Below, one piece after another: positions 1 to 35,904 of a stretch of DNA of 35,904 nt. Every line of letters starts with the position of its first letter. Position 1 is the stretch's first letter. Under the pieces are notes generated by a model. It searched no databases. It was not told where the DNA came from and saw only the letters and a program-made list of their open reading frames with translations. Made by a program: the position numbers and the translations under genes. The DNA comes from Microcoleus sp. MP8IB2.171 (GTDB lineage: Bacteria; Cyanobacteriota; Cyanobacteriia; Cyanobacteriales; Microcoleaceae): the NCBI GenBank assembly GCA_030248405.1, contig JARCMA010000429.1, positions 1 to 35,904 of the forward strand, read 5' to 3'.

Positions 1-500
1 CATGTCCTTACGCATCGGTTACCTAAAAAAATCGTGTGATTATTCTGCATCTGCGTTAATCTGCGTTCATCTGTCTTCATCTGCGGTAAAAATTTAACCA
101 ACGATGACAACAGACAATTTGACTATCTCACTCATATACTAACGATGCAACCGGTCACCTAAAAATCCCCGCTCTTATCTGCGTTCATCTGCGTTCATCT
201 GTCTTCATCTGCGGTTAAATTTAACCAATGATGACAACAGACAATGCCGATGTAACCGAACATGATATGAGTTATACTAAGCCTGGACAGAAATGCAAAT
301 TTAAAATTTTCAATTAAACAGGACTAAGGCCAACTGTCACACTTAAATCAACTTGTAGGGTGCATCAGACGAAGTTATACATGGATAGAATAAGGATTTC
401 AGCCTCTGACGCACCCTACTCTATGTGCCAGTTGCGTAAGTCCTATTAAATTCAACCTGCCAACTCAAATCTTCAAATTGAAATTACCATCACTAATTTC
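1..500. repeat. Gene-free left end filled with repeats
   Basis: I see no gene here. A roughly 100-bp unit occurs twice in direct orientation (14-118 and 146-245). Each copy has a (T/C)ACCTAAAAA motif, then stacked CTGCGTTCATCTG-type decamers, then AATTTAACCAA(C/T)GATGACAACAG. Similar TTCATCTGTG decamers recur at 9240-9270. A separate nested inverted repeat lies at 320-444. The adenylate cyclase promoter should lie in 445-500, but I see no convincing box. A contig end in such a repeat is typical of where an assembler stops. Confidence 0.75.
320..444. repeat. Nested inverted-repeat (MITE-like) element
   Basis: Inner arms GTAGGGTGCATCAGA (354-368) and TCTGACGCACCCTAC (405-419) pair with one mismatch. 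Outer arms AGGACT...CAACTG (320-336) and CAGTTG...AGTCCT (429-444) pair around them. GTAGGGTGCGTCAGA-type repeats are common between cyanobacterial genes. It has no coding capacity, so a non-autonomous mobile element or a structured repeat are both possible. Confidence 0.65.
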
Positions 501-2267
501 ATGAAACTGCGTCAAAAGACACTGCTGGTTATTGGTCTAAGCCTCGTAGGGCTAGTTGGGGTTTTGTATGCTACCGCATACATCCATCTCATGAAGCATA
601 CCCAAGACTTGGAGGTAGATTATACTACTCAGGGAGTGAAACGCGCCTTAGATGCCTTAGATGAGGATGTTAGCAACTTGAGCGTCTTGGTTCGCCAGTT
701 AGGTGCTTGGGACGACACCTACAACTTCATGGTGGATACCGACAAACGCTATCTCAAAACGAATCTTTCTAATCAGACTTTCTTAGATTTTAGGCTCAAC
801 ACAACCGTATTAATCGACTCTGACCGTCGAACAGTCCTCAGCAAAGGCTTCGATTTCAAGTATCAGAAAGGGATTCCCGTATCAAAGGGACTGCAACAGC
901 ATTTGACGGCTAGCAGCCTTTTAGTGCAACACGCTACACCAAAAACCAGTCATGAGGGAATCGTTATAGTACCAGAAGGGCCATTGCTGATTGCCTCTCA
1001 TCCGATCGTCACCAACAAATTCAACGGCCCAATTCGCGGCACGCTGGTCATGGGACGCTACTTAAACGCTGACGAAATCAAGCGTTTAGCCACTCTGACT
1101 CAGTTATCTATAACTATCCATCCTTTAAATAATGTACAGCTACCTCCCAACTTACAGGCAATGAGTACCGCCTTGGCAGAAAAAGAGAAGCAAGAGGTGG
1201 TGGGAGAAATCCCAAATCCCAAATCCCAAATCCAAAATGGGGAGATTCTCGTCCGACCGCTAGATGAAAATGCGATCGCAGGTTATACCATATTGAAGGA
1301 TATCTACGGCAAACCAGCTTTACTAATGGAAGTTAAATTTCCAAGACTTATTTACAACCAAGGAAAAGCTAGCCTAATTTATCTCCTCTTCTCACTCATT
1401 GGAGCCGGGTTTGTGTTTGGAATCGGCAATCTATTGCTATTAGAAAAGATGGTTTTGTCGCGGTTGGCTAGTCTCAGTAATGGAGTCAAAAGCATTGGTG
1501 CAAGCGGCGATCTTTCCTTGCGCGTATCCAGTGCTGGAGAAGATGAATTGTCCAGTCTTGGAGGAACCATTAACTGGATGCTAGAAACATTAGAATATTC
1601 TTTAAAACAACTCAAATCCGAACAAGAAAAAGCAGAACACCTACTGCTAAATATCTTGCCATCAGCAATTGCAGAGCGGTTGAAAAAAGAAGAATCTATC
1701 ATTGCCGATAGCTTCCCCGAAGCCACTGTTCTATTTGCTGACATCGTTGGCTTTACCAAACTGGCAGCGCGTACATCTCCGGTAGAACTGGTGAGCTTAC
1801 TTAACCAAATATTTTCCGCATTTGACCGACTGGTTGAACTGCATGGGTTGGAAAAAATTAAAACAATTGGCGATGCTTATATGGTGGTTGGAGGTTTGCC
1901 CAACCCACGGCCCGATCACGCCGCCGCCGTCGCCGAAATGGCTCTTGATATGCAGGAGGCAATCAAGGAATTTAACATGGCAAATAATGTAGATTTCAGT
2001 ATCCGAATTGGCATCAACACAGGGCCTGTTGTCGCCGGAGTCATAGGTATCAAAAAGTTTATCTACGATTTGTGGGGTGACACGGTTAACACTGCTAGCC
2101 GCATGGAATCTCATGGTGTGGCAGGCTGTATTCAAATGACAGAAGCAACTTACAAGTGTTTAAAGGACAAGTTCGATTTTGAAAACCGGGGTGTAATCCA
2201 GGTAAAAGGCAAAGGAGACATGACCGTTTATCTACTCGTGGGCAAGAAAGCTATAGCTAGGGGCTAG
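501..2267 (+). CDS. Membrane-bound class III adenylate cyclase (CHASE4-HAMP-cyclase)
   Basis: Predicted to make cAMP from ATP in response to an extracytoplasmic signal. The 588 residues hold a first membrane helix (about 7-28), a CHASE4-like periplasmic sensor (about 40-285, with the typical WDDTYNF at 70-76), a second helix (about 290-314), a HAMP linker (about 315-370) and a catalytic domain (about 400-580). Metal-binding Asp414 (FADIVGFT) and Asp458 (GDAYM) are present. Lys454 (EKIKTIGD) and Asp523 (YDLWGD) match the adenine-selecting pair; guanylate cyclases usually have Glu and Cys there. Asn530 and Arg534 complete the active site, so the enzyme looks intact. A 7-bp tandem repeat (1209-1236) adds an IPNPKSQIQN stretch to the sensor. 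The ATG falls directly before a basic, hydrophobic N-terminus. The ligand is unknown. Confidence 0.93.
   Translation: MKLRQKTLLVIGLSLVGLVGVLYATAYIHLMKHTQDLEVDYTTQGVKRALDALDEDVSNLSVLVRQLGAWDDTYNFMVDTDKRYLKTNLSNQTFLDFRLNTTVLIDSDRRTVLSKGFDFKYQKGIPVSKGLQQHLTASSLLVQHATPKTSHEGIVIVPEGPLLIASHPIVTNKFNGPIRGTLVMGRYLNADEIKRLATLTQLSITIHPLNNVQLPPNLQAMSTALAEKEKQEVVGEIPNPKSQIQNGEILVRPLDENAIAGYTILKDIYGKPALLMEVKFPRLIYNQGKASLIYLLFSLIGAGFVFGIGNLLLLEKMVLSRLASLSNGVKSIGASGDLSLRVSSAGEDELSSLGGTINWMLETLEYSLKQLKSEQEKAEHLLLNILPSAIAERLKKEESIIADSFPEATVLFADIVGFTKLAARTSPVELVSLLNQIFSAFDRLVELHGLEKIKTIGDAYMVVGGLPNPRPDHAAAVAEMALDMQEAIKEFNMANNVDFSIRIGINTGPVVAGVIGIKKFIYDLWGDTVNTASRMESHGVAGCIQMTEATYKCLKDKFDFENRGVIQVKGKGDMTVYLLVGKKAIARG
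1209..1236. repeat. In-frame heptameric tandem repeat (ATCCCAA)
   Basis: Three exact ATCCCAA copies plus a degenerate fourth lie inside the cyclase gene. This type of short tandem repeat is usually intergenic in cyanobacteria. Here it keeps the frame and encodes a short Asn/Pro/Gln-rich stretch in the periplasmic sensor. Confidence 0.8.
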
Positions 2268-2271
2268 GGAA

Positions 2272-2333
2272 AGAGAAGAGCAGAGGGGCAGAGGAGCAGA
2301 GGGGCAGGGGGGCAGAGGAGTAGAGGGGCAGAA
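2272..2333. repeat. Purine-rich short tandem repeat (GGGGCAGAGGA type)
   Basis: Irregular 8-10-bp units of GCAGAGGGGCAGAGGA type start 5 bp after the cyclase stop codon. Such G/A-rich arrays are common between genes in filamentous cyanobacteria. No U-tract terminator is visible. Confidence 0.8.
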
Positions 2334-2449
2334 ACATGAAAATGTGATTTTTTGAACAAAAACATCACAACTCCGAAAGAGCCAGAATTTCAGGAATCAT
2401 CTTATTTGTTTTTGTAGCTGTAGGTAACTTATAAGCAGACTCAACAAAT

Positions 2450-2863
2450 ATGAACTTTTCCTGGTTGAAATCCTCAAAGAAAGGCTGGATTTTTGCTTTT
2501 TGGTTCTACTTTGCTCTTTTAATCACAATATCTATCTCAGCATACTTGAAAGTTCTCCCTGTTAAATCCTCCACCATCCCTTATTACGATACAATAGGCC
2601 ATTTTATATTGTTAGGTATGGCAGCCTTCTTCGGTCATCTAGCCCTAAGCAAACGAAAAATTTCTGTCTGGTCTATTTCAATACCGCTGGCTCCACTTCT
2701 AGTGGCAATTAGTTGTATAGCTGATGAGCTGCTCCAGACACTTTCACCCAACCGAAGTGCTAGTTTTTACGATCTAGCAGCTGACTGGGTGGGCATCGCG
2801 ATCTTTTATTTATTAGCAGAACGAGTAAAATTGCAAAAGTCACTAGGTGAGGAAAAACTATGA
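2450..2863 (+). CDS. VanZ-family membrane protein
   Basis: A 137-residue protein with about four hydrophobic helices (roughly 14-33, 47-66, 73-95 and 108-123). It carries the VanZ-like pattern of polar residues: DTIGH near 49, ADELLQ near 90, and PNRSASFYDLAADWVG near 98-113. VanZ of Enterococcus is linked to teicoplanin resistance, but the wider family is found in many bacteria without antibiotic clusters and its biochemical role is not established. No resistance gene is near, so I do not infer resistance. The stop codon overlaps the ATG of the zinc-ribbon ORF (ATGA), so the two are probably translationally coupled. Confidence 0.85.
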   Translation: MNFSWLKSSKKGWIFAFWFYFALLITISISAYLKVLPVKSSTIPYYDTIGHFILLGMAAFFGHLALSKRKISVWSISIPLAPLLVAISCIADELLQTLSPNRSASFYDLAADWVGIAIFYLLAERVKLQKSLGEEKL

Positions 2864-2958
2864 AATGTCCTGCTTGTGAAAATCAGTTAACCCAGATAGT
2901 TGCTGGAAGTATAACGGTTGATGCTTGTAAAGGCGGTTGCGACGGAATGGAAAGGTAA
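2860..2958 (+). pseudogene. Truncated TFIIB-type zinc-ribbon protein (32 codons)
   Basis: This ORF is too short for the ORF track. It begins MKCPACENQLTQIVAGSITV and has CPAC and CKGGC, the two cysteine pairs of the small zf-TFIIB family. Members I know continue past CKGGCGG with IWFDNFEL-like sequence. Here the frame reads CKGGCDGMER and stops, and the bases after the stop do not resume the family sequence. The start overlaps the vanZ stop by 4 bp, as for a real operon gene. I read it as a remnant that lost its C-terminus, though a minimal two-knuckle peptide could still be made. Confidence 0.65.
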
Positions 2959-3134
2959 CCAGTAAACAAAGATGGGGGAAAGCTGCGATCGCATAATTCA
3001 GAAAAGACCGCTCAACTAAATAAACTCTTCAGAAATTTGGCTTGCTTTGTTCCAGCTACTATGTTATGTAGTTTGGATTTATTTCTGCTACAAATGAACA
3101 CCCTCTGGTGTAGAGACGTTGGTTCCATATAATG

Positions 3135-3187
3135 GGTACGTTGTTGCGCTTTAGCGCTCTTTGAGCGCTAAAGCGCAACAACGTACC
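3135..3187. repeat. Long hairpin repeat, TACGTTGTTGCGC family, copy 1
   Basis: Arms beginning GGTACGTTGTTGCGCTTTAG pair perfectly over about 25 bp around a 3-nt loop. The right flank TTATAACTAGCAACTT nearly matches the flank of copy 2 (CTTATGACTAGCAACTT, 6651-6667). A further copy lies at 16659-16710. Confidence 0.85.
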
Positions 3188-3209
3188 TTATAACTAGCAA
3201 CTTACGTTA

Positions 3210-3253
3210 CTACAGATGTAGAGACGTTTCATGAAACGTCTCTACATCTGTAG
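3210..3253. repeat. 44-bp perfect palindrome
   Basis: The left half CTACAGATGTAGAGACGTTT is followed by CA and then its exact reverse complement. The inner 28 bp are identical to the sequence at the axis of the whole window, which links the large inverted repeat to this repeat family. Confidence 0.9.
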
Positions 3254-3316
3254 CTTGTCTGCAAAAAGTTAAAATAGAAGCAGATTGATTATTGTTATGC
3301 CTCAATTTGTTAGCTC

Positions 3317-4801
3317 ATGACAACCGCTGCACCAGTTAAAACTCAGTACGAAGCCGTGATCGGTTTAGAAACCCACTGTCAGCTTAGTACCGACACTAAG
3401 ATTTTCTGCAATTGTTCTACCGAATTTGGCAGTCGCCCAAACCAGAACGTTTGCCCAATTTGCATGGGTATGCCGGGAGTGTTGCCAGTACTCAATGAGA
3501 AGGTACTGGAGTACGCCGTCAAAGCTGGGATAGCCCTCAACTCTGAGATTGCACCCTATAGCAAATTTGACCGCAAACAGTATTTTTATCCCGATTTGCC
3601 TAAAAATTACCAAATTTCTCAGTACGACCTGCCTATTGCCGAGCATGGTTGGCTAGAAGTTGAATTGGTGGATGAAGCGGGTAAAGTTACCCGCAAAAAG
3701 ATTGGTATCACTCGCCTGCACATGGAGGAAGATGCGGGAAAGTTGGTTCACGCGGGTAGCGACCGCCTTTCGGGTTCCACTTACTCTCTGGTAGACTTCA
3801 ACCGCACGGGTGTAGCTTTAGTAGAAATTGTCTCAGAACCGGATATGCGATCGGCCCTAGAAGCTGCTGAATATGCCCAAGAACTGCGCCGAATTCTGCG
3901 CTATTTGGGTGTCAGCGACGGCAATATGCAGGAAGGTTCCCTGCGCTGCGACGTGAATATCTCCGTGCGTCCGGTGGGACGAAAAGAGTTTGGCACGAAG
4001 GTAGAAATTAAGAATATGAACTCCTTCAGTGCTATTGAAAGGGCGATCGATTACGAGATCGATCGGCAAACCACAGCACTGGAAGCCGGTGAGCGGATTG
4101 TGCAAGAAACTAGGCTGTGGGAGGAAGGCAGTCAACGCACTATCAGTATGCGGATCAAGGAAGGTTCCAGCGATTACCGCTATTTCCCCGAACCCGATTT
4201 AGCTCCCATTGAGGTGACATCCGCGCAGCTACAGAAGTGGAAGTCGGAACTGCCAGAACTCCCGGCCCAGAAACGACACCGCTATGAAAGTGAATTGGGA
4301 CTTTCTGCCTACGATGCGCGGGTACTGACAGACGATCGCTCCGTGTCCGAATATTTTGAAGCCGTTGTCGCCGCTGGTGCCAATTCCAAGCAAGCGGCTA
4401 ATTGGGTGATGGGCGATATCAGCGCCTACCTCAACAACGAAAAACTTAGCATCGCCCAAATTGCCCTCAAACCGGACACCTTAGCTGAACTGATTTCCCT
4501 AATCGAAGCAGGCACTATCAGCGGCAAGATTGCCAAAGATATTCTACCGGAGTTGTTCTCTAGTGGTGGTTCGGCTAAGGAAGTGGTCGATCGCAAGGGA
4601 TTAACCCAAATCTCGGATACTGTAGCTCTAGAAACCATCATCGATGAAATCTTGGCGGCAAATCCCAAAGAGCTAGAACAGTACCGCAACGGCAAAACCA
4701 AACTGTTGGGCTTCTTTGTCGGACAGGTGATGAAGAAAACATCTGGTCGAGCCGATCCCCAGCTGACCAACCAACTGCTGGCCCAAAAGTTGAAATCTTA
4801 G
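3317..4801 (+). CDS. gatB: Aspartyl/glutamyl-tRNA(Asn/Gln) amidotransferase subunit B
   Basis: GatB of the GatCAB complex phosphorylates and then amidates Glu on tRNA-Gln (or Asp on tRNA-Asn), making the correctly charged tRNA in organisms without glutaminyl-tRNA synthetase. The 494 residues match the family's usual length. The N-terminal catalytic cradle starts [14 protein letters not shown] zinc-type Cys set (C31, C33, C46, C49; CNC...CPICMG) is present, as are [10 protein letters not shown] and EIKNMNSF signatures. A helical domain and the C-terminal YqeY-like tail (ending near [16 protein letters not shown]) follow. gatA and gatC are not in the window, as is common in cyanobacteria. A strong terminator lies about 110 bp downstream. 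Confidence 0.97.
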
Positions 4802-4884
4802 TCTCAACTTTAACAAAAAGCGGCCAGACTTCACCAAAAAAATACAATAAGGGGTATCACCCCTCACCCCCAACCATTTATAAT

Positions 4885-4949
4885 CGTGTATGTAGATGCA
4901 CCCTGATGATCGGGAGAGTCGTCCATCCAAGCGACTCCCCTTTTTTTTT
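4885..4949 (+). ncRNA. Candidate small RNA between gatB and argJ
   Basis: A perfect TATAAT (4879-4884) is followed within about 65 nt by a GC-rich stem and nine T's. This promoter-terminator spacing suggests a short transcript starting near 4891. No good -35 box is visible and I do not recognise the RNA family. The simpler reading is that the stem is only the gatB terminator. Confidence 0.3.
4911..4949 (+). terminator. Rho-independent terminator after gatB
   Basis: GGGAGAGTCG (4912-4921) pairs with CGACTCCCC (4932-4940), leaving one bulged A, around a loop of about 10 nt. Nine T's follow at once. It is the clearest terminator in the unique half. Confidence 0.8.
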
Positions 4950-4974
4950 GAGGAGCTAGTGCCGCTACGCGGAA

Positions 4975-5002
4975 GTCAAAAGTCAAAAGTCAAAAGTCAA
5001 AA
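4975..5002. repeat. Heptameric tandem repeat (GTCAAAA)x4
   Basis: Four exact 7-bp units, the cyanobacterial STRR type. No function is implied. Confidence 0.9.
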
Positions 5003-5194
5003 GTAAAGAATGGAGCGGTCTTAGGGGGAGTATGTAAACGGAAGCGATATTAGACAAACATGGGTTGACTTGACTGAAAATCCCTCGCAGCAAGAGTTTC
5101 TTCAATTCTTTAATCTAAAATCTAAAATCTTTAATTTAAAATCTAAAATGGTATGATCCGCTCTCAGACAAGCAAAAGGCTGGAGGGGAAAGTT

Positions 5195-6436
5195 ATGACA
5201 GAATGGCAGGAAATCAGCGGTAGCGTGACAGCACCCAGGGGGTATCGTGCGGCGGGGATTACGGCTGGACTGAAAGCTTCGGGATTACCGGATTTAGCTT
5301 TGATTGTGTCGGATGTGGAGGCGATCGCAGCTGGAGTATTCACCACCTCTGTTGTACGTGCCGCCCCTGTGGATTACTGCCGTCAGCGGCTGCAATCTAA
5401 ACCAGGTGCCAGCGCTATTCTCTGCAACGCTGGACAAGCTAATGCTGCTACAGGTTCCCAAGGTTGGATTGATGCGATCGAATGCGCCCAAAATTTAGCT
5501 CAAATACTGAATATTCCCTCAGACTCTATCTTGCTAGCATCTACTGGCGTCATCGGTCAGCGGATTAAGATGGATGTGCTGAAAGCAGGAATTCCTGAAC
5601 TCGTCGCCGCCTTATCGGAAACCGGAGGCGATTCAGCTGCAAAGGCGATTATCACCACAGATTTAGTGCCAAAATCGATCGCCCTAGAAACAATCATGCA
5701 CGATCGTCCAGTCCGAATCGGGGGAATTGCCAAAGGTTCGGGTATGATTCATCCCAACATGGCGACAATGCTATCTTTTGTTACCTGCGATGCAGCGGTT
5801 TCTCCTTCCCTGTGGCAACAAATGTTGAGTCGCGCCGCCGATAAAAGCTTCAATCAAATTACTGTTGACGGCGATACCAGTACCAACGACACCTTAATTG
5901 CTTTAGCTAACGGACAATCTCGCACACCCGCGATTACCGAAATAGGCCCAGAAGCAGAAAAGTTGGAGGCCATGTTAACAGCAGTTTGTCAGCATTTGGC
6001 AAAAGCGATCGCACGGGACGGCGAAGGTGCCACCTGTCTCGTTGAAGTAGTAGTTTCTGGCGCAACTGATGACAAAGCGGCGCGTCAAGTTGCCAAAACG
6101 ATCGCCGGTTCATCTCTAGTTAAATCAGCTATTTTCGGTCGCGACCCCAACTGGGGAAGAATTGCAGCAGCAGCTGGACGTGCTGGTGTCGCCTTCGATC
6201 AAGAAAATTTGCAAATCAGGTTAGGTAATTTCTTACTAATGGAAAACGGACAACCTTTAGCATTCGATCGATCTGCTGCTAGTGCATACTTGAAAACAGC
6301 AGCATCTGGTGCTTATTTGAAAGAAGATACCGTTTTAATTTCAGTAAGTATTGGCAATGGAGGTGGTTTTGGTAAAGCTTGGGGATGCGATTTGACTTAC
6401 GACTACGTGAAAATTAACGCCGAGTATACGACTTAA
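5195..6436 (+). CDS. argJ: Bifunctional glutamate N-acetyltransferase / amino-acid N-acetyltransferase
   Basis: ArgJ moves the acetyl group from N-acetylornithine to glutamate, releasing ornithine (the cyclic arginine pathway), and in bifunctional forms also acetylates glutamate from acetyl-CoA. The precursor cleaves itself before a Thr nucleophile into alpha and beta chains. Here the KGSGMIHPNMATML motif is intact, with Thr191 as the cleavage and nucleophile residue. TVDGDTSTNDT and GRDPNWGRI are further ArgJ signatures, and the C-terminus GCDLTYDYVKINAEYTT is complete. The ORF track starts 14 codons earlier (5153), but the ATG at 5195 has a good GGAGG 9 bp upstream and begins MTEWQEISG, so I use it. 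It appears to stand alone. Confidence 0.96.
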   Translation: MTEWQEISGSVTAPRGYRAAGITAGLKASGLPDLALIVSDVEAIAAGVFTTSVVRAAPVDYCRQRLQSKPGASAILCNAGQANAATGSQGWIDAIECAQNLAQILNIPSDSILLASTGVIGQRIKMDVLKAGIPELVAALSETGGDSAAKAIITTDLVPKSIALETIMHDRPVRIGGIAKGSGMIHPNMATMLSFVTCDAAVSPSLWQQMLSRAADKSFNQITVDGDTSTNDTLIALANGQSRTPAITEIGPEAEKLEAMLTAVCQHLAKAIARDGEGATCLVEVVVSGATDDKAARQVAKTIAGSSLVKSAIFGRDPNWGRIAAAAGRAGVAFDQENLQIRLGNFLLMENGQPLAFDRSAASAYLKTAASGAYLKEDTVLISVSIGNGGGFGKAWGCDLTYDYVKINAEYTT

Positions 6437-6447
6437 TCTCTTGTGGA

Positions 6448-6464
6448 GCAGGCATCTTGCCTGC
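6448..6464. repeat. Short hairpin after argJ
   Basis: GCAGGCATCTTGCCTGC forms a 6-bp stem 12 bp after the argJ stop. The same motif is common after cyanobacterial genes. It has no U-tract, so a terminator role is uncertain. Confidence 0.6.
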
Positions 6465-6541
6465 TATGGGGTGTGGGGCGGGCTACGAGAACCTACCCCA
6501 CAACAAAAGGGGCGGTATATTGTAGGTTAGGTTTCTTTACT

Positions 6542-6673
6542 TAACTCAAATTGCTAGTTACTTGCATCAGGTCTTGCTCGGAATGGGTACGTTGTTGCGC
6601 TTTAGCGCTAAAGCTCAACAACATACCTACTGCATACAAAGAGCCTCAATCTTATGACTAGCAACTTGAGTTA
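6542..6673. repeat. MITE-like element with 19-bp terminal inverted repeats, hairpin family copy 2
   Basis: TAACTCAAATTGCTAGTTA (6542-6560) and TGACTAGCAACTTGAGTTA (6655-6673) are inverted with two mismatches. Between them lies the TACGTTGTTGCGC hairpin (6586-6627), here with two mismatched pairs. It has no ORF. The layout suggests a non-autonomous mobile element, but no target-site duplication could be confirmed. Confidence 0.7.
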
Positions 6674-6691
6674 CTCACTGAACCTACTAAG

Positions 6692-6719
6692 CAATGACCA
6701 ATGACCAATGACCAATGAC
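6692..6719. repeat. Heptameric tandem repeat (CAATGAC)x4 containing the start codon of the next gene
   Basis: Four exact 7-bp units. Each holds an ATG; the last (6715) is the start of the Rpn-like gene. The three upstream ATGs open frames of 4-5 codons, and the one at 6701 ends in TGA at 6716-6718, overlapping the true ATG. No Shine-Dalgarno sequence is visible. Confidence 0.85.
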
Positions 6720-7614
6720 TAAATCAGCAGATATCGGTAGCAAAAGTTTAATTAGTTTAGCACCCGATGCTTGGGTGAAATGGGTAACGCAGTCCCCCAA
6801 TATAACGGCGCGAGATATTCTTACCTCTGAGTTCCAATGGATTAGTCGGGAGGGAGATGTAATAGTAAAAGCCTACAGTCCACAAATCGGCGAGTTTTTA
6901 GTGCTGAACGAGATACAATTGCGCTATAATAATCGGATGCCTTTACGAATGCGAGCTTACGCAGCACTAGCAGAAGAGCGATACAACTTGCCAGTCTACC
7001 CGGTACTGATTAATATTTTGCAACCAACACCGGGAGTGGTTATAGCTAGAGGCTATGAATCGCAGGTTTTCGGATTAAGAGCAACTCAGGAGTATCGCGT
7101 AATTAATCTCTGGGAAGTAGATGCCCAAACAGTTTTTCAACAACAGTTAACATCTTTGCTTCCCTTTGTACCAGTGCTGAGAGGTGGTGGTGAGGAAGCA
7201 GTAGTGCAGCAAGCAGTCCAACTTTTACGTGCTGATGAACAGTTGAATGAGTTGGAAAACCTGTTAGCTTTTTTTGCTACCTTTGTATTGGAAACTCGTT
7301 TAGTCCAGCAAATTATGAGGTGGGATATGGCTGTTTTACGAGAATCGCCTTGGTATCAAGAGATTTGGAGGGAAGGAGAACAACGAGGTTTACAACAAGG
7401 TTTACAACAAGGTTTACAACAAGGTTTACAACAAGGAATCTTGTCAGCTATTGAATTTGGTTTGGAGCTAAAATTCGGTAGTGAGGGATTACAGCTATTG
7501 CCAGAAATATCTCAGATTTCGGATGTGGATGTATTGAAGGCAATTCAGGAAAGACTCAAGACGGCAAATAGTTTGGAAGAGGTGCGGCAAATTTATGGAG
7601 TAAGTGAAATTTGA
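6715..7614 (+). CDS. Rpn-family PD-(D/E)XK nuclease-like protein
   Basis: A 299-residue protein resembling the recombination-promoting nuclease (Rpn, formerly putative transposase) family, which is expanded in cyanobacteria. Asp48 (EGDVIV) and Glu66-x-Gln68 (LNEIQLRYN) fit the D...ExQ form of the PD-(D/E)XK active site. The next helix (RMRAYAALAEERY) and the strand VYPVLINIL fit the family. The C-terminal half has a helical region, then four in-frame copies of LQQG (a 12-bp DNA repeat at 7387-7434); GxxQG arrays of this kind are common in Rpn proteins. The start lies inside a heptamer array. E. coli Rpn proteins have DNA endonuclease activity; activity here is inferred only. Confidence 0.78.
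   Translation: MTKSADIGSKSLISLAPDAWVKWVTQSPNITARDILTSEFQWISREGDVIVKAYSPQIGEFLVLNEIQLRYNNRMPLRMRAYAALAEERYNLPVYPVLINILQPTPGVVIARGYESQVFGLRATQEYRVINLWEVDAQTVFQQQLTSLLPFVPVLRGGGEEAVVQQAVQLLRADEQLNELENLLAFFATFVLETRLVQQIMRWDMAVLRESPWYQEIWREGEQRGLQQGLQQGLQQGLQQGILSAIEFGLELKFGSEGLQLLPEISQISDVDVLKAIQERLKTANSLEEVRQIYGVSEI
7387..7434. repeat. 12-bp coding tandem repeat (GGTTTACAACAA)x4
   Basis: Four exact 12-bp units encode repeated GLQQ. Copy number can change without a frameshift, so it is a likely length polymorphism. Confidence 0.9.
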
Positions 7615-7630
7615 CCATCAGTGTGAGGTT

Positions 7631-7663
7631 AGAAACCCGGTTTTTTGAAAAAACCGGGTTTCT
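7631..7663. terminator. Perfect AGAAACCCGG hairpin, possible terminator
   Basis: AGAAACCCGGTTTTTT and its exact complement flank a single G, 16 bp after the Rpn-like stop codon. The T-run sits inside the stem, so it could terminate transcription on either strand. It is also a dispersed repeat: related arms are at 7781 and 9299-9365. Confidence 0.5.
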
Positions 7664-7817
7664 ATTCTGGTGCTTATCCGAACAGATTCGTAGGTTGGGT
7701 TGAGGAACGAAACTAGGGCAAATTCGTTGGGTTTCGCTTCACTCAACCCAACCTACAAAGAAATGGCGAGGGTATTGTTCAAAAAACCGGGTTTCTATTC
7801 TGGTGCTTATCTGAACA
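7648..7817. repeat. Inverted-repeat element flanked by 37-bp direct repeats
   Basis: The 37 bp starting AAAAAACCGGGTTTCTATTC occur at 7648-7684 and 7781-7817 with one mismatch. Between them, GTAGGTTGGGTTGAG (7690-7704) and its exact reverse complement (7742-7756) form an inverted repeat. No ORF is supported. It could be an insertion of the inner element next to a duplication, or a tandem repeat of a composite unit. Confidence 0.75.
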
Positions 7818-7889
7818 CTATTAAGTGGTGCGTTACTACAATTTTCTCATCCTGTGTCACAATAAACCAAAGTGTCTGGAAAGCGCGAC

Positions 7890-8990
7890 ATGGTTTGGGC
7901 AGCAGGTCAGCGGTTGCAGAATGATAAGTATATTATCGAGAAAATCCTGGGAGAAGGCGGTTTCGGGATTACTTATCAAGCACGACACACGCTGCTGCAA
8001 CAGCTAATGGTGATTAAAACGCCCAACGAAAGGCTGAAAAATGACCCCGAATACCCGAAATATTTGCGGCGATTCGTGGAGGAAGGGCGGCGACTGGAAA
8101 AACTCTCTGAACAGAAGCATCCCAATATCGTGCGCGTCAGGGATTTGTTTGAAGAGGGGGGGATATACTGCCTGGTAATGGATTTTGTAGCAGGGGAGAG
8201 TTTGTTTAATTTGGTGCAGCGGCGAGGGGCGTTACCTCCCACAGAAGCGGTGGAGTACGTGCGACAAATTGGGGAAGCTTTGACGGTGGTACATCAAGCG
8301 AGACTGGTGCATAGGGATGCTCACCCAGGCAATATTATGGTACAGAGAGATGGTAAAGCAATTTTGATTGATTTTGGCATTGCTGGGGAAATTTTCCCTA
8401 CTACTGTTAGTTCAAGGTTTTTTGCCCATCCAGTTTTTGCCCCTTACGAACAGAGGATGGGCTATCGGGAACCAACTGTTGATGTGTACAGTTTGGCTGC
8501 TTCTCTATATTATGTTGTCACTGGTCAACGTCCAACACCTTCGTCAAAACGTAAGCGGAGGAAGGTGCGATTAGTTCCACCTAAGCAACACGCTGATATT
8601 AGCGCTGAGTTAAATCGGGCGATTCTCAAGGGGATGAAGTTGGAGGCGAAAAACCGTCCTCAGTCGATGCGGGAATGGTTGAAGTTGTTGGAAGTGGCGA
8701 ATCGCACTGTCGAGGTTAGTTTACCGCCGAAGAAACAAATAAGTATTCCTTGGGTTTGGCTAACAAGATGGTTGTTAATCTATGCAGTTTTAGGTTTCTT
8801 TTCAGCACCTTCTGCTTTGGCTTGGGCTTTTGCTTTTGGTTTTGGTTTTGCTTTTGGTTTTGGTTTTGCTTCGGAAGAGTTACTCAAGTCCTTCAGCAAG
8901 TTTCACACATTTCTAATCTTGCTTGGAACTTCTTGGTTAGGACTGGGTTTAGGATGGTTGGCGTATCAGATATATATGATAATTCGATAA
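7890..8990 (+). CDS. Membrane-anchored serine/threonine protein kinase
   Basis: A Hanks-type kinase domain (about 14-270) is followed by a hydrophobic C-terminus. Counting from the upstream GTG at 7872: glycine loop GEGGFGITY (27-35), ATP-binding Lys49 (VIKT), catalytic loop HRDAHPGN with Asp149 and Asn154, and IDFG with Asp167. All key residues are present, so it should be active. The tail has membrane segments at about 297-340 and 346-371; the first contains an (AF)(GF) low-complexity run encoded by TTTTGG/TTTTGC repeats (8829-8870). I prefer the ATG at 7890 because GGAAAG lies just upstream and MVWAAGQ is the usual start of these cyanobacterial kinases; the GTG adds six residues. The substrate is unknown. 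Confidence 0.92.
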   Translation: MVWAAGQRLQNDKYIIEKILGEGGFGITYQARHTLLQQLMVIKTPNERLKNDPEYPKYLRRFVEEGRRLEKLSEQKHPNIVRVRDLFEEGGIYCLVMDFVAGESLFNLVQRRGALPPTEAVEYVRQIGEALTVVHQARLVHRDAHPGNIMVQRDGKAILIDFGIAGEIFPTTVSSRFFAHPVFAPYEQRMGYREPTVDVYSLAASLYYVVTGQRPTPSSKRKRRKVRLVPPKQHADISAELNRAILKGMKLEAKNRPQSMREWLKLLEVANRTVEVSLPPKKQISIPWVWLTRWLLIYAVLGFFSAPSALAWAFAFGFGFAFGFGFASEELLKSFSKFHTFLILLGTSWLGLGLGWLAYQIYMIIR

Positions 8991-9123
8991 GATTGCACTA
9001 CCCTTCGTTGAGGTTGGCAATGGGGCGCGATTTTGTCCGCTTAGTTGAGGTACGAAACCCAACAAATGCGATAGGTTTCGCTTTTCTAATACCAATTATT
9101 GAGATCTTGCACCAACGCATTCA

Positions 9124-9180
9124 CCCGCCTGCGAATCAATTCGCAGGCTAATAGCGAAAGTCCACTAAAGTGGACTGAAA
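9124..9180 (+). repeat. Two-hairpin dispersed element, copy A
   Basis: Hairpin 1 (9127-9148) has 9-bp arms GCCTGCGAA/TTCGCAGGC with loop TCAA. The linker is TAATAGCGAA. Hairpin 2 (9159-9176) has arms AGTCCACT/AGTGGACT. Copy B at 9401-9455 (opposite strand) keeps the linker and changes both stems in a paired way. Confidence 0.8.
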
Positions 9181-9298
9181 GACTATCCCAAAAACCAATC
9201 AAAAACAGTCATCATCTGCATAGCAAAAAATCTACATCCACATCTGTGTTCATCTGTGTTCATCTGTGGTTAAAAATATCCAAATCTTGCCCAAAGTC

Positions 9299-9365
9299 AG
9301 AAACCGGGTTTTTCGCAATTAACCCTACCCCAAAACCGAAATCTTTGCTAAAAAACCCGGTTTCT
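9299..9365. repeat. AGAAACCGGG inverted repeat
   Basis: AGAAACCGGGTTTTT (9299-9313) and its exact reverse complement (9351-9365) enclose 37 bp without coding content. It belongs to the same family as the hairpin at 7631-7663. Confidence 0.75.
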
Positions 9366-26504: not shown

Positions 26505-26724
26505 AATATTTCTATTTGGAGTTTAGACTATTAGACTTAAGAAACCGGGTTTTTTAGCAAAGATTTCGGTTTTGGGGTAGGGTTAATTGCGAAAAACCCG
26601 GTTTCTGACTTTGGGCAAGATTTGGATATTTTTAACCACAGATGAACACAGATGAACACAGATGTGGATGTAGATTTTTTGCTATGCAGATGATGACTGT
26701 TTTTGATTGGTTTTTGGGATAGTC

Positions 26725-26781
26725 TTTCAGTCCACTTTAGTGGACTTTCGCTATTAGCCTGCGAATTGATTCGCAGGCGGG
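26725..26781 (-). repeat. Two-hairpin element copy A (mirror)
   Basis: Mirror of 9124-9180, with GCCTGCGAA and AGTCCACT stems. Confidence 0.8.
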
Positions 26782-26914
26782 TGAATGCGTTGGTGCAAGA
26801 TCTCAATAATTGGTATTAGAAAAGCGAAACCTATCGCATTTGTTGGGTTTCGTACCTCAACTAAGCGGACAAAATCGCGCCCCATTGCCAACCTCAACGA
26901 AGGGTAGTGCAATC

Positions 26915-28015: not shown

Positions 28016-28087
28016 GTCGCGCTTTCCAGACACTTTGGTTTATTGTGACACAGGATGAGAAAATTGTAGTAACGCACCACTTAATAG

Positions 28088-28257
28088 TGTTCAGATAAGC
28101 ACCAGAATAGAAACCCGGTTTTTTGAACAATACCCTCGCCATTTCTTTGTAGGTTGGGTTGAGTGAAGCGAAACCCAACGAATTTGCCCTAGTTTCGTTC
28201 CTCAACCCAACCTACGAATCTGTTCGGATAAGCACCAGAATAGAAACCCGGTTTTTT
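28088..28257. repeat. Inverted-repeat element with 37-bp direct repeats (mirror)
   Basis: Mirror of 7648-7817. Confidence 0.75.
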
Positions 28258-28274
28258 CAAAAAACCGGGTTTCT
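28242..28274. terminator. AGAAACCCGG hairpin (mirror)
   Basis: Mirror of 7631-7663, just after the Rpn-like stop codon. Confidence 0.5.
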
Positions 28275-28290
28275 AACCTCACACTGATGG

Positions 28291-29190
28291 TCAAATTTCA
28301 CTTACTCCATAAATTTGCCGCACCTCTTCCAAACTATTTGCCGTCTTGAGTCTTTCCTGAATTGCCTTCAATACATCCACATCCGAAATCTGAGATATTT
28401 CTGGCAATAGCTGTAATCCCTCACTACCGAATTTTAGCTCCAAACCAAATTCAATAGCTGACAAGATTCCTTGTTGTAAACCTTGTTGTAAACCTTGTTG
28501 TAAACCTTGTTGTAAACCTCGTTGTTCTCCTTCCCTCCAAATCTCTTGATACCAAGGCGATTCTCGTAAAACAGCCATATCCCACCTCATAATTTGCTGG
28601 ACTAAACGAGTTTCCAATACAAAGGTAGCAAAAAAAGCTAACAGGTTTTCCAACTCATTCAACTGTTCATCAGCACGTAAAAGTTGGACTGCTTGCTGCA
28701 CTACTGCTTCCTCACCACCACCTCTCAGCACTGGTACAAAGGGAAGCAAAGATGTTAACTGTTGTTGAAAAACTGTTTGGGCATCTACTTCCCAGAGATT
28801 AATTACGCGATACTCCTGAGTTGCTCTTAATCCGAAAACCTGCGATTCATAGCCTCTAGCTATAACCACTCCCGGTGTTGGTTGCAAAATATTAATCAGT
28901 ACCGGGTAGACTGGCAAGTTGTATCGCTCTTCTGCTAGTGCTGCGTAAGCTCGCATTCGTAAAGGCATCCGATTATTATAGCGCAATTGTATCTCGTTCA
29001 GCACTAAAAACTCGCCGATTTGTGGACTGTAGGCTTTTACTATTACATCTCCCTCCCGACTAATCCATTGGAACTCAGAGGTAAGAATATCTCGCGCCGT
29101 TATATTGGGGGACTGCGTTACCCATTTCACCCAAGCATCGGGTGCTAAACTAATTAAACTTTTGCTACCGATATCTGCTGATTTAGTCAT
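28291..29190 (-). CDS. Rpn-family nuclease-like protein (mirror copy)
   Basis: Mirror of 6715-7614, identical 299 residues including the LQQG array, with its start inside the heptamer repeat (29186-29213). Confidence 0.76.
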   Translation of the reverse strand: MTKSADIGSKSLISLAPDAWVKWVTQSPNITARDILTSEFQWISREGDVIVKAYSPQIGEFLVLNEIQLRYNNRMPLRMRAYAALAEERYNLPVYPVLINILQPTPGVVIARGYESQVFGLRATQEYRVINLWEVDAQTVFQQQLTSLLPFVPVLRGGGEEAVVQQAVQLLRADEQLNELENLLAFFATFVLETRLVQQIMRWDMAVLRESPWYQEIWREGEQRGLQQGLQQGLQQGLQQGILSAIEFGLELKFGSEGLQLLPEISQISDVDVLKAIQERLKTANSLEEVRQIYGVSEI

Positions 29191-29213
29191 TGGTCATTGG
29201 TCATTGGTCATTG
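29186..29213. repeat. Heptamer array with start codon (mirror)
   Basis: Mirror of 6692-6719, seen here as (GTCATTG)x4. Confidence 0.85.
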
Positions 29214-29231
29214 CTTAGTAGGTTCAGTGAG

Positions 29232-29363
29232 TAACTCAAGTTGCTAGTCATAAGATTGAGGCTCTTTGTATGCAGTAGGTATGTTGTTGAGCTTTAGCGC
29301 TAAAGCGCAACAACGTACCCATTCCGAGCAAGACCTGATGCAAGTAACTAGCAATTTGAGTTA
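29232..29363. repeat. MITE-like element, hairpin family copy 2 (mirror)
   Basis: Mirror of 6542-6673, with 19-bp terminal inverted repeats. Confidence 0.7.
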
Positions 29364-29468
29364 AGTAAAGAAACCTAACCTACAATATACCGCCCCTTTT
29401 GTTGTGGGGTAGGTTCTCGTAGCCCGCCCCACACCCCATAGCAGGCAAGATGCCTGCTCCACAAGAGA

Positions 29469-30710
29469 TTAAGTCGTATACTCGGCGTTAATTTTCACGT
29501 AGTCGTAAGTCAAATCGCATCCCCAAGCTTTACCAAAACCACCTCCATTGCCAATACTTACTGAAATTAAAACGGTATCTTCTTTCAAATAAGCACCAGA
29601 TGCTGCTGTTTTCAAGTATGCACTAGCAGCAGATCGATCGAATGCTAAAGGTTGTCCGTTTTCCATTAGTAAGAAATTACCTAACCTGATTTGCAAATTT
29701 TCTTGATCGAAGGCGACACCAGCACGTCCAGCTGCTGCTGCAATTCTTCCCCAGTTGGGGTCGCGACCGAAAATAGCTGATTTAACTAGAGATGAACCGG
29801 CGATCGTTTTGGCAACTTGACGCGCCGCTTTGTCATCAGTTGCGCCAGAAACTACTACTTCAACGAGACAGGTGGCACCTTCGCCGTCCCGTGCGATCGC
29901 TTTTGCCAAATGCTGACAAACTGCTGTTAACATGGCCTCCAACTTTTCTGCTTCTGGGCCTATTTCGGTAATCGCGGGTGTGCGAGATTGTCCGTTAGCT
30001 AAAGCAATTAAGGTGTCGTTGGTACTGGTATCGCCGTCAACAGTAATTTGATTGAAGCTTTTATCGGCGGCGCGACTCAACATTTGTTGCCACAGGGAAG
30101 GAGAAACCGCTGCATCGCAGGTAACAAAAGATAGCATTGTCGCCATGTTGGGATGAATCATACCCGAACCTTTGGCAATTCCCCCGATTCGGACTGGACG
30201 ATCGTGCATGATTGTTTCTAGGGCGATCGATTTTGGCACTAAATCTGTGGTGATAATCGCCTTTGCAGCTGAATCGCCTCCGGTTTCCGATAAGGCGGCG
30301 ACGAGTTCAGGAATTCCTGCTTTCAGCACATCCATCTTAATCCGCTGACCGATGACGCCAGTAGATGCTAGCAAGATAGAGTCTGAGGGAATATTCAGTA
30401 TTTGAGCTAAATTTTGGGCGCATTCGATCGCATCAATCCAACCTTGGGAACCTGTAGCAGCATTAGCTTGTCCAGCGTTGCAGAGAATAGCGCTGGCACC
30501 TGGTTTAGATTGCAGCCGCTGACGGCAGTAATCCACAGGGGCGGCACGTACAACAGAGGTGGTGAATACTCCAGCTGCGATCGCCTCCACATCCGACACA
30601 ATCAAAGCTAAATCCGGTAATCCCGAAGCTTTCAGTCCAGCCGTAATCCCCGCCGCACGATACCCCCTGGGTGCTGTCACGCTACCGCTGATTTCCTGCC
30701 ATTCTGTCAT
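29469..30710 (-). CDS. argJ: Bifunctional ornithine/glutamate acetyltransferase ArgJ (mirror copy)
   Basis: Mirror of 5195-6436, identical protein with self-cleavage Thr191. The start at 30710 has GGAGG upstream; the track start at 30752 is less likely. Confidence 0.93.
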   Translation of the reverse strand: MTEWQEISGSVTAPRGYRAAGITAGLKASGLPDLALIVSDVEAIAAGVFTTSVVRAAPVDYCRQRLQSKPGASAILCNAGQANAATGSQGWIDAIECAQNLAQILNIPSDSILLASTGVIGQRIKMDVLKAGIPELVAALSETGGDSAAKAIITTDLVPKSIALETIMHDRPVRIGGIAKGSGMIHPNMATMLSFVTCDAAVSPSLWQQMLSRAADKSFNQITVDGDTSTNDTLIALANGQSRTPAITEIGPEAEKLEAMLTAVCQHLAKAIARDGEGATCLVEVVVSGATDDKAARQVAKTIAGSSLVKSAIFGRDPNWGRIAAAAGRAGVAFDQENLQIRLGNFLLMENGQPLAFDRSAASAYLKTAASGAYLKEDTVLISVSIGNGGGFGKAWGCDLTYDYVKINAEYTT

Positions 30711-31103
30711 AACTTTCCCCTCCAGCCTTTTGCTTGTCTGAGAGCGGATCATACCATTTTAGATTTTAAATTAAAGATTTTAGATTTTAGATTAAAGAAT
30801 TGAAGAAACTCTTGCTGCGAGGGATTTTCAGTCAAGTCAACCCATGTTTGTCTAATATCGCTTCCGTTTACATACTCCCCCTAAGACCGCTCCATTCTTT
30901 ACTTTTGACTTTTGACTTTTGACTTTTGACTTCCGCGTAGCGGCACTAGCTCCTCAAAAAAAAAGGGGAGTCGCTTGGATGGACGACTCTCCCGATCATC
31001 AGGGTGCATCTACATACACGATTATAAATGGTTGGGGGTGAGGGGTGATACCCCTTATTGTATTTTTTTGGTGAAGTCTGGCCGCTTTTTGTTAAAGTTG
31101 AGA
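30711..31103. other. argJ-gatB intergenic region (mirror)
   Basis: Mirror of 4802-5194. Heptamer array (30903-30930), gatB terminator (30956-30994) and candidate small RNA on the minus strand. Confidence 0.7.
30956..30994 (-). terminator. gatB terminator (mirror)
   Basis: Mirror of 4911-4949; the nine T's appear here as an A-run at 30956-30964. Confidence 0.8.
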
Positions 31104-32588
31104 CTAAGATTTCAACTTTTGGGCCAGCAGTTGGTTGGTCAGCTGGGGATCGGCTCGACCAGATGTTTTCTTCATCACCTGTCCGACAAAGAAGCCCAAC
31201 AGTTTGGTTTTGCCGTTGCGGTACTGTTCTAGCTCTTTGGGATTTGCCGCCAAGATTTCATCGATGATGGTTTCTAGAGCTACAGTATCCGAGATTTGGG
31301 TTAATCCCTTGCGATCGACCACTTCCTTAGCCGAACCACCACTAGAGAACAACTCCGGTAGAATATCTTTGGCAATCTTGCCGCTGATAGTGCCTGCTTC
31401 GATTAGGGAAATCAGTTCAGCTAAGGTGTCCGGTTTGAGGGCAATTTGGGCGATGCTAAGTTTTTCGTTGTTGAGGTAGGCGCTGATATCGCCCATCACC
31501 CAATTAGCCGCTTGCTTGGAATTGGCACCAGCGGCGACAACGGCTTCAAAATATTCGGACACGGAGCGATCGTCTGTCAGTACCCGCGCATCGTAGGCAG
31601 AAAGTCCCAATTCACTTTCATAGCGGTGTCGTTTCTGGGCCGGGAGTTCTGGCAGTTCCGACTTCCACTTCTGTAGCTGCGCGGATGTCACCTCAATGGG
31701 AGCTAAATCGGGTTCGGGGAAATAGCGGTAATCGCTGGAACCTTCCTTGATCCGCATACTGATAGTGCGTTGACTGCCTTCCTCCCACAGCCTAGTTTCT
31801 TGCACAATCCGCTCACCGGCTTCCAGTGCTGTGGTTTGCCGATCGATCTCGTAATCGATCGCCCTTTCAATAGCACTGAAGGAGTTCATATTCTTAATTT
31901 CTACCTTCGTGCCAAACTCTTTTCGTCCCACCGGACGCACGGAGATATTCACGTCGCAGCGCAGGGAACCTTCCTGCATATTGCCGTCGCTGACACCCAA
32001 ATAGCGCAGAATTCGGCGCAGTTCTTGGGCATATTCAGCAGCTTCTAGGGCCGATCGCATATCCGGTTCTGAGACAATTTCTACTAAAGCTACACCCGTG
32101 CGGTTGAAGTCTACCAGAGAGTAAGTGGAACCCGAAAGGCGGTCGCTACCCGCGTGAACCAACTTTCCCGCATCTTCCTCCATGTGCAGGCGAGTGATAC
32201 CAATCTTTTTGCGGGTAACTTTACCCGCTTCATCCACCAATTCAACTTCTAGCCAACCATGCTCGGCAATAGGCAGGTCGTACTGAGAAATTTGGTAATT
32301 TTTAGGCAAATCGGGATAAAAATACTGTTTGCGGTCAAATTTGCTATAGGGTGCAATCTCAGAGTTGAGGGCTATCCCAGCTTTGACGGCGTACTCCAGT
32401 ACCTTCTCATTGAGTACTGGCAACACTCCCGGCATACCCATGCAAATTGGGCAAACGTTCTGGTTTGGGCGACTGCCAAATTCGGTAGAACAATTGCAGA
32501 AAATCTTAGTGTCGGTACTAAGCTGACAGTGGGTTTCTAAACCGATCACGGCTTCGTACTGAGTTTTAACTGGTGCAGCGGTTGTCAT
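31104..32588 (-). CDS. gatB: Glu/Asp-tRNA amidotransferase subunit B (mirror copy)
   Basis: Mirror of 3317-4801, identical 494 residues with the CNC...CPIC zinc site. Confidence 0.94.
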
Positions 32589-32946
32589 GAGCTAACAAAT
32601 TGAGGCATAACAATAATCAATCTGCTTCTATTTTAACTTTTTGCAGACAAGCTACAGATGTAGAGACGTTTCATGAAACGTCTCTACATCTGTAGTAACG
32701 TAAGTTGCTAGTTATAAGGTACGTTGTTGCGCTTTAGCGCTCAAAGAGCGCTAAAGCGCAACAACGTACCCATTATATGGAACCAACGTCTCTACACCAG
32801 AGGGTGTTCATTTGTAGCAGAAATAAATCCAAACTACATAACATAGTAGCTGGAACAAAGCAAGCCAAATTTCTGAAGAGTTTATTTAGTTGAGCGGTCT
32901 TTTCTGAATTATGCGATCGCAGCTTTCCCCCATCTTTGTTTACTGG
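32589..32946. repeat. Gene-free hairpin-repeat interval (mirror)
   Basis: Mirror of 2959-3316. Holds the 44-bp palindrome (32652-32695) and hairpin copy 1 (32718-32770). Confidence 0.75.
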
Positions 32947-33045
32947 TTACCTTTCCATTCCGTCGCAACCGCCTTTACAAGCATCAACCGTTATACTTCC
33001 AGCAACTATCTGGGTTAACTGATTTTCACAAGCAGGACATTTCAT
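32947..33045 (-). pseudogene. Truncated zinc-ribbon ORF (mirror copy)
   Basis: Mirror of 2860-2958, 32 codons with CPAC and CKGGC, overlapping the vanZ-like stop. Confidence 0.63.
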
Positions 33046-33455
33046 AGTTTTTCCTCACCTAGTGACTTTTGCAATTTTACTCGTTCTGCTAATAAATAAA
33101 AGATCGCGATGCCCACCCAGTCAGCTGCTAGATCGTAAAAACTAGCACTTCGGTTGGGTGAAAGTGTCTGGAGCAGCTCATCAGCTATACAACTAATTGC
33201 CACTAGAAGTGGAGCCAGCGGTATTGAAATAGACCAGACAGAAATTTTTCGTTTGCTTAGGGCTAGATGACCGAAGAAGGCTGCCATACCTAACAATATA
33301 AAATGGCCTATTGTATCGTAATAAGGGATGGTGGAGGATTTAACAGGGAGAACTTTCAAGTATGCTGAGATAGATATTGTGATTAAAAGAGCAAAGTAGA
33401 ACCAAAAAGCAAAAATCCAGCCTTTCTTTGAGGATTTCAACCAGGAAAAGTTCAT
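33042..33455 (-). CDS. VanZ-family membrane protein (mirror copy)
   Basis: Mirror of 2450-2863, identical 137 residues with four predicted helices. Confidence 0.82.
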   Translation of the reverse strand: MNFSWLKSSKKGWIFAFWFYFALLITISISAYLKVLPVKSSTIPYYDTIGHFILLGMAAFFGHLALSKRKISVWSISIPLAPLLVAISCIADELLQTLSPNRSASFYDLAADWVGIAIFYLLAERVKLQKSLGEEKL

Positions 33456-33571
33456 ATTTGTTGAGTCTGCTTATAAGTTACCTACAGCTACAAAAACAAA
33501 TAAGATGATTCCTGAAATTCTGGCTCTTTCGGAGTTGTGATGTTTTTGTTCAAAAAATCACATTTTCATGT

Positions 33572-33633
33572 TTCTGCCCCTCTACTCCTCTGCCCCCCTG
33601 CCCCTCTGCTCCTCTGCCCCTCTGCTCTTCTCT
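33572..33633. repeat. G/A-rich short tandem repeat (mirror)
   Basis: Mirror of 2272-2333, seen as CCTCTGCCCC units. Confidence 0.8.
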
Positions 33634-33637
33634 TTCC

Positions 33638-35404
33638 CTAGCCCCTAGCTATAGCTTTCTTGCCCACGAGTAGATAAACGGTCATGTCTCCTTTGCCTTT
33701 TACCTGGATTACACCCCGGTTTTCAAAATCGAACTTGTCCTTTAAACACTTGTAAGTTGCTTCTGTCATTTGAATACAGCCTGCCACACCATGAGATTCC
33801 ATGCGGCTAGCAGTGTTAACCGTGTCACCCCACAAATCGTAGATAAACTTTTTGATACCTATGACTCCGGCGACAACAGGCCCTGTGTTGATGCCAATTC
33901 GGATACTGAAATCTACATTATTTGCCATGTTAAATTCCTTGATTGCCTCCTGCATATCAAGAGCCATTTCGGCGACGGCGGCGGCGTGATCGGGCCGTGG
34001 GTTGGGCAAACCTCCAACCACCATATAAGCATCGCCAATTGTTTTAATTTTTTCCAACCCATGCAGTTCAACCAGTCGGTCAAATGCGGAAAATATTTGG
34101 TTAAGTAAGCTCACCAGTTCTACCGGAGATGTACGCGCTGCCAGTTTGGTAAAGCCAACGATGTCAGCAAATAGAACAGTGGCTTCGGGGAAGCTATCGG
34201 CAATGATAGATTCTTCTTTTTTCAACCGCTCTGCAATTGCTGATGGCAAGATATTTAGCAGTAGGTGTTCTGCTTTTTCTTGTTCGGATTTGAGTTGTTT
34301 TAAAGAATATTCTAATGTTTCTAGCATCCAGTTAATGGTTCCTCCAAGACTGGACAATTCATCTTCTCCAGCACTGGATACGCGCAAGGAAAGATCGCCG
34401 CTTGCACCAATGCTTTTGACTCCATTACTGAGACTAGCCAACCGCGACAAAACCATCTTTTCTAATAGCAATAGATTGCCGATTCCAAACACAAACCCGG
34501 CTCCAATGAGTGAGAAGAGGAGATAAATTAGGCTAGCTTTTCCTTGGTTGTAAATAAGTCTTGGAAATTTAACTTCCATTAGTAAAGCTGGTTTGCCGTA
34601 GATATCCTTCAATATGGTATAACCTGCGATCGCATTTTCATCTAGCGGTCGGACGAGAATCTCCCCATTTTGGATTTGGGATTTGGGATTTGGGATTTCT
34701 CCCACCACCTCTTGCTTCTCTTTTTCTGCCAAGGCGGTACTCATTGCCTGTAAGTTGGGAGGTAGCTGTACATTATTTAAAGGATGGATAGTTATAGATA
34801 ACTGAGTCAGAGTGGCTAAACGCTTGATTTCGTCAGCGTTTAAGTAGCGTCCCATGACCAGCGTGCCGCGAATTGGGCCGTTGAATTTGTTGGTGACGAT
34901 CGGATGAGAGGCAATCAGCAATGGCCCTTCTGGTACTATAACGATTCCCTCATGACTGGTTTTTGGTGTAGCGTGTTGCACTAAAAGGCTGCTAGCCGTC
35001 AAATGCTGTTGCAGTCCCTTTGATACGGGAATCCCTTTCTGATACTTGAAATCGAAGCCTTTGCTGAGGACTGTTCGACGGTCAGAGTCGATTAATACGG
35101 TTGTGTTGAGCCTAAAATCTAAGAAAGTCTGATTAGAAAGATTCGTTTTGAGATAGCGTTTGTCGGTATCCACCATGAAGTTGTAGGTGTCGTCCCAAGC
35201 ACCTAACTGGCGAACCAAGACGCTCAAGTTGCTAACATCCTCATCTAAGGCATCTAAGGCGCGTTTCACTCCCTGAGTAGTATAATCTACCTCCAAGTCT
35301 TGGGTATGCTTCATGAGATGGATGTATGCGGTAGCATACAAAACCCCAACTAGCCCTACGAGGCTTAGACCAATAACCAGCAGTGTCTTTTGACGCAGTT
35401 TCAT
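33638..35404 (-). CDS. CHASE4-HAMP adenylate cyclase (mirror copy)
   Basis: Mirror of 501-2267, identical 588 residues with all catalytic residues (Asp414, Lys454, Asp458, Asp523, Asn530, Arg534). Confidence 0.9.
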   Translation of the reverse strand: MKLRQKTLLVIGLSLVGLVGVLYATAYIHLMKHTQDLEVDYTTQGVKRALDALDEDVSNLSVLVRQLGAWDDTYNFMVDTDKRYLKTNLSNQTFLDFRLNTTVLIDSDRRTVLSKGFDFKYQKGIPVSKGLQQHLTASSLLVQHATPKTSHEGIVIVPEGPLLIASHPIVTNKFNGPIRGTLVMGRYLNADEIKRLATLTQLSITIHPLNNVQLPPNLQAMSTALAEKEKQEVVGEIPNPKSQIQNGEILVRPLDENAIAGYTILKDIYGKPALLMEVKFPRLIYNQGKASLIYLLFSLIGAGFVFGIGNLLLLEKMVLSRLASLSNGVKSIGASGDLSLRVSSAGEDELSSLGGTINWMLETLEYSLKQLKSEQEKAEHLLLNILPSAIAERLKKEESIIADSFPEATVLFADIVGFTKLAARTSPVELVSLLNQIFSAFDRLVELHGLEKIKTIGDAYMVVGGLPNPRPDHAAAVAEMALDMQEAIKEFNMANNVDFSIRIGINTGPVVAGVIGIKKFIYDLWGDTVNTASRMESHGVAGCIQMTEATYKCLKDKFDFENRGVIQVKGKGDMTVYLLVGKKAIARG

Positions 35405-35904
35405 GAAATTAGTGATGGTAATTTCAATTTGAAGATTTGAGTTGGCAGGTTGAATTTAATAGGACTTACGCAACTGGCACATAGAGTAGGGTGCGTCAGA
35501 GGCTGAAATCCTTATTCTATCCATGTATAACTTCGTCTGATGCACCCTACAAGTTGATTTAAGTGTGACAGTTGGCCTTAGTCCTGTTTAATTGAAAATT
35601 TTAAATTTGCATTTCTGTCCAGGCTTAGTATAACTCATATCATGTTCGGTTACATCGGCATTGTCTGTTGTCATCATTGGTTAAATTTAACCGCAGATGA
35701 AGACAGATGAACGCAGATGAACGCAGATAAGAGCGGGGATTTTTAGGTGACCGGTTGCATCGTTAGTATATGAGTGAGATAGTCAAATTGTCTGTTGTCA
35801 TCGTTGGTTAAATTTTTACCGCAGATGAAGACAGATGAACGCAGATTAACGCAGATGCAGAATAATCACACGATTTTTTTAGGTAACCGATGCGTAAGGA
35901 CATG
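35405..35904. repeat. Gene-free right end with repeats (mirror)
   Basis: Mirror of 1-500. Nested inverted repeat at 35461-35585 and the two roughly 100-bp units at 35660-35759 and 35787-35891. Confidence 0.75.

Follow-up and report, generated by a model that had tools for sequence, protein, structure and literature searches.

A 35,904-bp mirrored contig in a Microcoleus draft genome, very probably an assembly fold-back at a natural 46-bp palindrome

Contigs whose second half exactly mirrors the first have already been met in cyanobacteria: such "palindromic contigs" were removed from Yellowstone single-cell genomes as very likely assembly artefacts (eLife RP90849, PMC12755884). The artificial concatenation of identical sequence and the inclusion of foreign contigs are both known faults of MAGs (Chen et al. 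2020, PMC7111523), and whole-genome amplification is known to create artificial palindromes in long reads (PMC6218980). The window analysed here, that is the whole stretch of 35,904 nucleotides, is the complete contig C105 of G000, a 6.07-Mb draft genome of Microcoleus sp. MP8IB2.171 with 671 contigs, 90% completeness and 3.4% contamination. There is little doubt, in our assessment, that the window arose as a fold-back artefact of assembly from a single 17,952-bp stretch.

An exact mirror and the content of its arm

The earlier note, made from the sequence alone, had described a spacer-free perfect palindrome with 17,952-bp arms and ORFs mirrored at coordinates summing to 35905, and both descriptions were borne out. 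On direct comparison, the window and its reverse complement agreed at 35,904 of 35,904 bases, without a mismatch, the mirror extending from contig end to contig end around an axis between positions 17,952 and 17,953, with no spacer, and the ORF pairs did sum to 35905. Base counts were balanced accordingly (A/T 10048/10048, G/C 7904/7904). Seventeen thousand nine hundred and fifty-two matched base pairs cannot have arisen by chance. Of 59 further contigs of G000, two were masked, and no other mirrored contig was found among the 57 that could be read (~507 kb), leaving C105 as the only one of 58, so the artefact is not widespread in the bin.

The arm begins with genes for a CHASE4-HAMP-guanylate cyclase and a VanZ-like protein, followed by gatB, argJ, an Rpn-like ORF and a protein kinase gene, and continues with three DUF29 paralogues, an AAA/SKI-like gene, a methyltransferase gene, hemH, a DUF4126 gene, gdh and a glycosyltransferase gene. 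Nothing in this set suggests a mobile or selectable unit. A phage or other mobile element was dropped as an explanation, the arm genes being ordinary housekeeping genes, and a plasmid origin of the arm was unsupported, with only short or low-identity matches.

Several smaller features of the arm were also recorded. The three DUF29 paralogues lie in tandem on the minus strand (9655-11377), with a spacing of ~548 bp and 77-79% identity over 300 nt. A second short palindromic repeat family (GGTACGTTGTTGCGCTTTAGCGC...) has three copies per arm (3135-3187, 6586-6627 and 16664-16705), and similar sequences are present in several genomes of the order. A 12-bp tandem repeat (AAGGTTTACAAC) lies at 7373-7436 within a 299-aa ORF (6715-7614) whose match is annotated as an Rpn-family nuclease gene. 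Inverted repeats of 57 nt (9123-9179 and 9399-9455), 91% complementary and 219 nt apart, look like the termini of a small MITE-like element.

Table 1 Features of the mirrored window.
Feature	Position	Strand	Remarks
Left arm	1-17952	+	Very probably the single real copy; cyanobacterium of G140's genus (f32 g42)
Right arm	17953-35904	-	Exact reverse complement of 1-17952, zero mismatches; in all likelihood a spurious second copy
Fold point, natural 46-bp perfect palindrome	17930-17975	.	GCTACAAATGTAGAGACGTTTCA and TGAAACGTCTCTACATTTGTAGC meeting at the axis; identical 46 bp at G140:C466:9721-9766
Dispersed-repeat segment at the outer end of arm and contig	1-158	+	~30 copies in G140
Second copy of the palindromic repeat, 44 bp perfect	3210-3253	.	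Within the arm; crossed normally by the assembly
Mirror image of the second copy	32652-32695	.	Coordinates from the exact mirror; 30-bp core found at 32659-32688

A single copy in a related genome and the sequence at the fold

In the genome G140 the arm is present in one copy, split over two contigs that overlap by 119 identical bases. Window positions 1-8393 were 100.000% identical to C21 over 8,393 bp, and C21 extends 2,857 bp past window position 1, the outer end of the arm, with ~1.0 kb of this flank aligning with the congener G067 at 93.6%. Positions 9044-17952 were 99.85% identical to C466, with no difference in the 1,943 bp next to the axis. In the congeners G108 and G067, too, the arm's glycosyltransferase end is single-copy. 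Between 8394 and 9043 the window differs from C466 (~86% identity with gaps over 8275-9020), a departure that probably reflects variation between strains at a graph branch and that points to close populations rather than proving a single strain. Its position coincides with the 119-bp overlap of C21 and C466.

At the axis, C466 carries a full natural palindrome of 46 bp, GCTACAAATGTAGAGACGTTTCATGAAACGTCTCTACATTTGTAGC. After the palindrome C466 reads AAACATTTAGGTGGACTCAATCCAGCCT and the window reads the mirror CGAAATAAATCC..., C466 departing from the mirror 23 bp past the axis. G140 itself offers a short native continuation, as C466 stops 28 bp after the palindrome; the contig's final 16 bp agree with what follows the glycosyltransferase gene in the congeners G067 and G108 (GGGACTCAATCCAGCCTTGGCCAATCTGG). 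In both congeners a copy of the palindromic repeat also lies between this gene and the downstream flank. The further downstream DNA of G067 was found in G140 on C207 at 95%; a direct overlap between C466 and C207 beyond the palindrome was sought in G140 and not found, and synteny with G067 suggests that the two contigs join. Sequence comparison at the axis showed the mirrored junction to be absent from C466 and from the syntenic congener loci.

The axis palindrome is the longest perfect palindrome in the arm and in the sampled G140 contigs, the others measuring 44, 38 and 30 bp, and it belongs to a dispersed repeat with copies inside the arm (Table 1) and elsewhere in G140. The assembly crossed the copy inside the arm normally, so the element is here an ordinary short dispersed palindrome. 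A literature search for a name of this repeat returned no paper. The position of the fold is explained by this natural palindromic repeat, a cause that the earlier note had missed.

A linear replicon with a hairpin (covalently closed) telomere, sequenced through the tip, would also be expected to give a mirror of zero spacer with a palindrome at its axis. That C466 runs on past the same palindrome refutes such an end for this near-identical genome, however, and in the congeners G067 and G108 the same glycosyltransferase gene is followed by further sequence and genes; moreover, the same palindrome recurs within the arm and at other sites in G140. We consider the probability of a telomere to be negligible.

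A true and very recent 18-kb inverted duplication in the sampled strain would have been made at the 46-bp palindrome, by template switching or by replication folding back, and dispersed 46-bp cyanobacterial repeats would then be natural seeds of giant palindromes. Such a duplication would also be expected to place its axis on the palindrome, and a de Bruijn assembler would give an identical contig from it. We nevertheless judge it very unlikely, since the arm occurs once in the near-identical G140 and gives way there, beyond the palindrome, to sequence outside the mirror, and the two arms show zero differences over 18 kb with no spacer between them. Long perfect palindromes are, furthermore, unstable in bacteria. 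Also bearing on a duplication, the ends of C105 coincide with the arm ends, and the copy in G140 is single. Assembly fold-back, which the earlier note had put forward as the best explanation, is instead supported by the order of sequence in G140, an independent assembly of this DNA: the arm once, the palindrome at the axis, and then sequence that is not mirrored.

Turning back in a toy assembly graph

For odd k, a perfect palindrome of at least k+1 letters contains a self-complementary (k+1)-letter word, at which a path through a de Bruijn graph can turn back. We built a toy graph of this kind on the real end of C466, using odd k and with the far flank either kept or removed. The graph contained one self-complementary (k+1)-letter word at k = 21-45 and none at k of at least 47. 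With the far flank removed and odd k = 29-45, the unbranched walk returned along the arm and was identical to the window over the part compared; at k = 21 it halted earlier, at an unrelated branch, and at k of at least 47 the toy graph gave no mirrored contig. With the far flank present, the walk reached a two-way branch. A fold-back path can survive in assemblers that pass contigs on from small k to larger k.

Under the fold-back reading, a short-read, de Bruijn-type assembler would have followed the real 17,952-bp stretch (A) into the 46-bp palindrome (P), a copy of a dispersed repeat. With k below the palindrome length, the paths A-P-B and A-P-A' (A' being the reverse complement of A) would have words in common and, if the true far flank B were lost or pruned, the sole remaining path would lead back along A and yield a contig A-P-A'. 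The other end of the contig would halt in the second dispersed repeat, whose copies in G140 are mostly 88-96% identical, making the product symmetric to the base; the mirrored contig would then have been placed in the wrong draft genome. We infer the identity of the assembler, its k values and the manner in which the far flank was lost. The end of G140's own contig so soon after the palindrome fits a spot that is difficult to assemble.

The inverted molecules might alternatively have been made before assembly, as chimeras of whole-genome amplification (MDA), a known source of artificial palindromic reads (PMC6218980, PMC13265396), provided that the library was amplified. We judge such an origin very unlikely as well: mirrors made by MDA would be pervasive, whereas one contig in the 58 examined is mirrored, and the fold lies exactly on a natural palindrome, which the graph alone explains.

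Placement in a foreign bin and comparison with known artefacts

A second fault, overlooked by the earlier note, concerns the bin in which the contig lies. When 391 genomes of the order were scanned with the final 5.4 kb of the arm (12578-17952), G140 matched at ~100% and its congeners G108 and G067 at 91-95%; G140 belongs to family f32, whereas the host bin belongs to family f1. G000 has homologues of its own for the genes tested, and these are divergent from those of the window: hemH and gdh on C335 (76% and 82% identical, respectively), gatB on C431 (78%) and argJ on C626 (79%). The C335 gdh is 99% identical to that of Microcoleus sp. FACHB-DQ6 (locus L018), and the host bin appears Microcoleus-like as judged by this gene; the gdh of the window reached ~82% at best in named genomes, among the matches listed. 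Within G000 the axis palindrome is confined to C105, and the repeats of the window, abundant in G140, are almost absent from the remaining bin. A search of the bin for the sequence that truly adjoins the outer end of the arm (the C21 flank) gave only one weak match, of 317 bp at 80%. The tetranucleotide correlation of the arm (0.76 vs ~0.83-0.87 in sampled contigs of comparable length) is a further hint of a foreign contig, weak by itself. Judged by these comparisons, C105 is a misbinned contaminant from the species of G140 or a very close relative.

The misplacement alters two remarks of the earlier note. That both arms hold normally single-copy genes is correct within C105, but for each gene tested the bin contains a third, divergent homologue on another contig. 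Gene counts are inflated, as had been predicted, but not doubled: C105 makes gatB, argJ, hemH and gdh appear three times in G000, because native homologues exist.

No new biology is supported by this analysis, and the mirror of the window is not a biological feature. Its relevance lies in quality control, as C105 burdens a public draft genome with ~18 kb of false and ~18 kb of foreign sequence. A dispersed palindromic repeat that exceeds the assembly word in length is a simple and checkable cause, for which cyanobacterial assemblies rich in repeats could be screened.

Among described artefacts, C105 resembles the Yellowstone contigs (PMC12755884) in being cyanobacterial and in having its first half mirrored exactly in the second. 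Those came from single-cell assemblies, and the passage describing them gives no cause for the axis, whereas the axis of C105 can be tied to a natural 46-bp palindrome with its native continuation in another genome. With the faults described by Chen et al. (PMC7111523) it shares both a repetition made by assembly and the presence of a foreign contig in a bin; the passage on their example speaks of repeated copies and does not mention an inverted one, whereas the copy in C105 is inverted.
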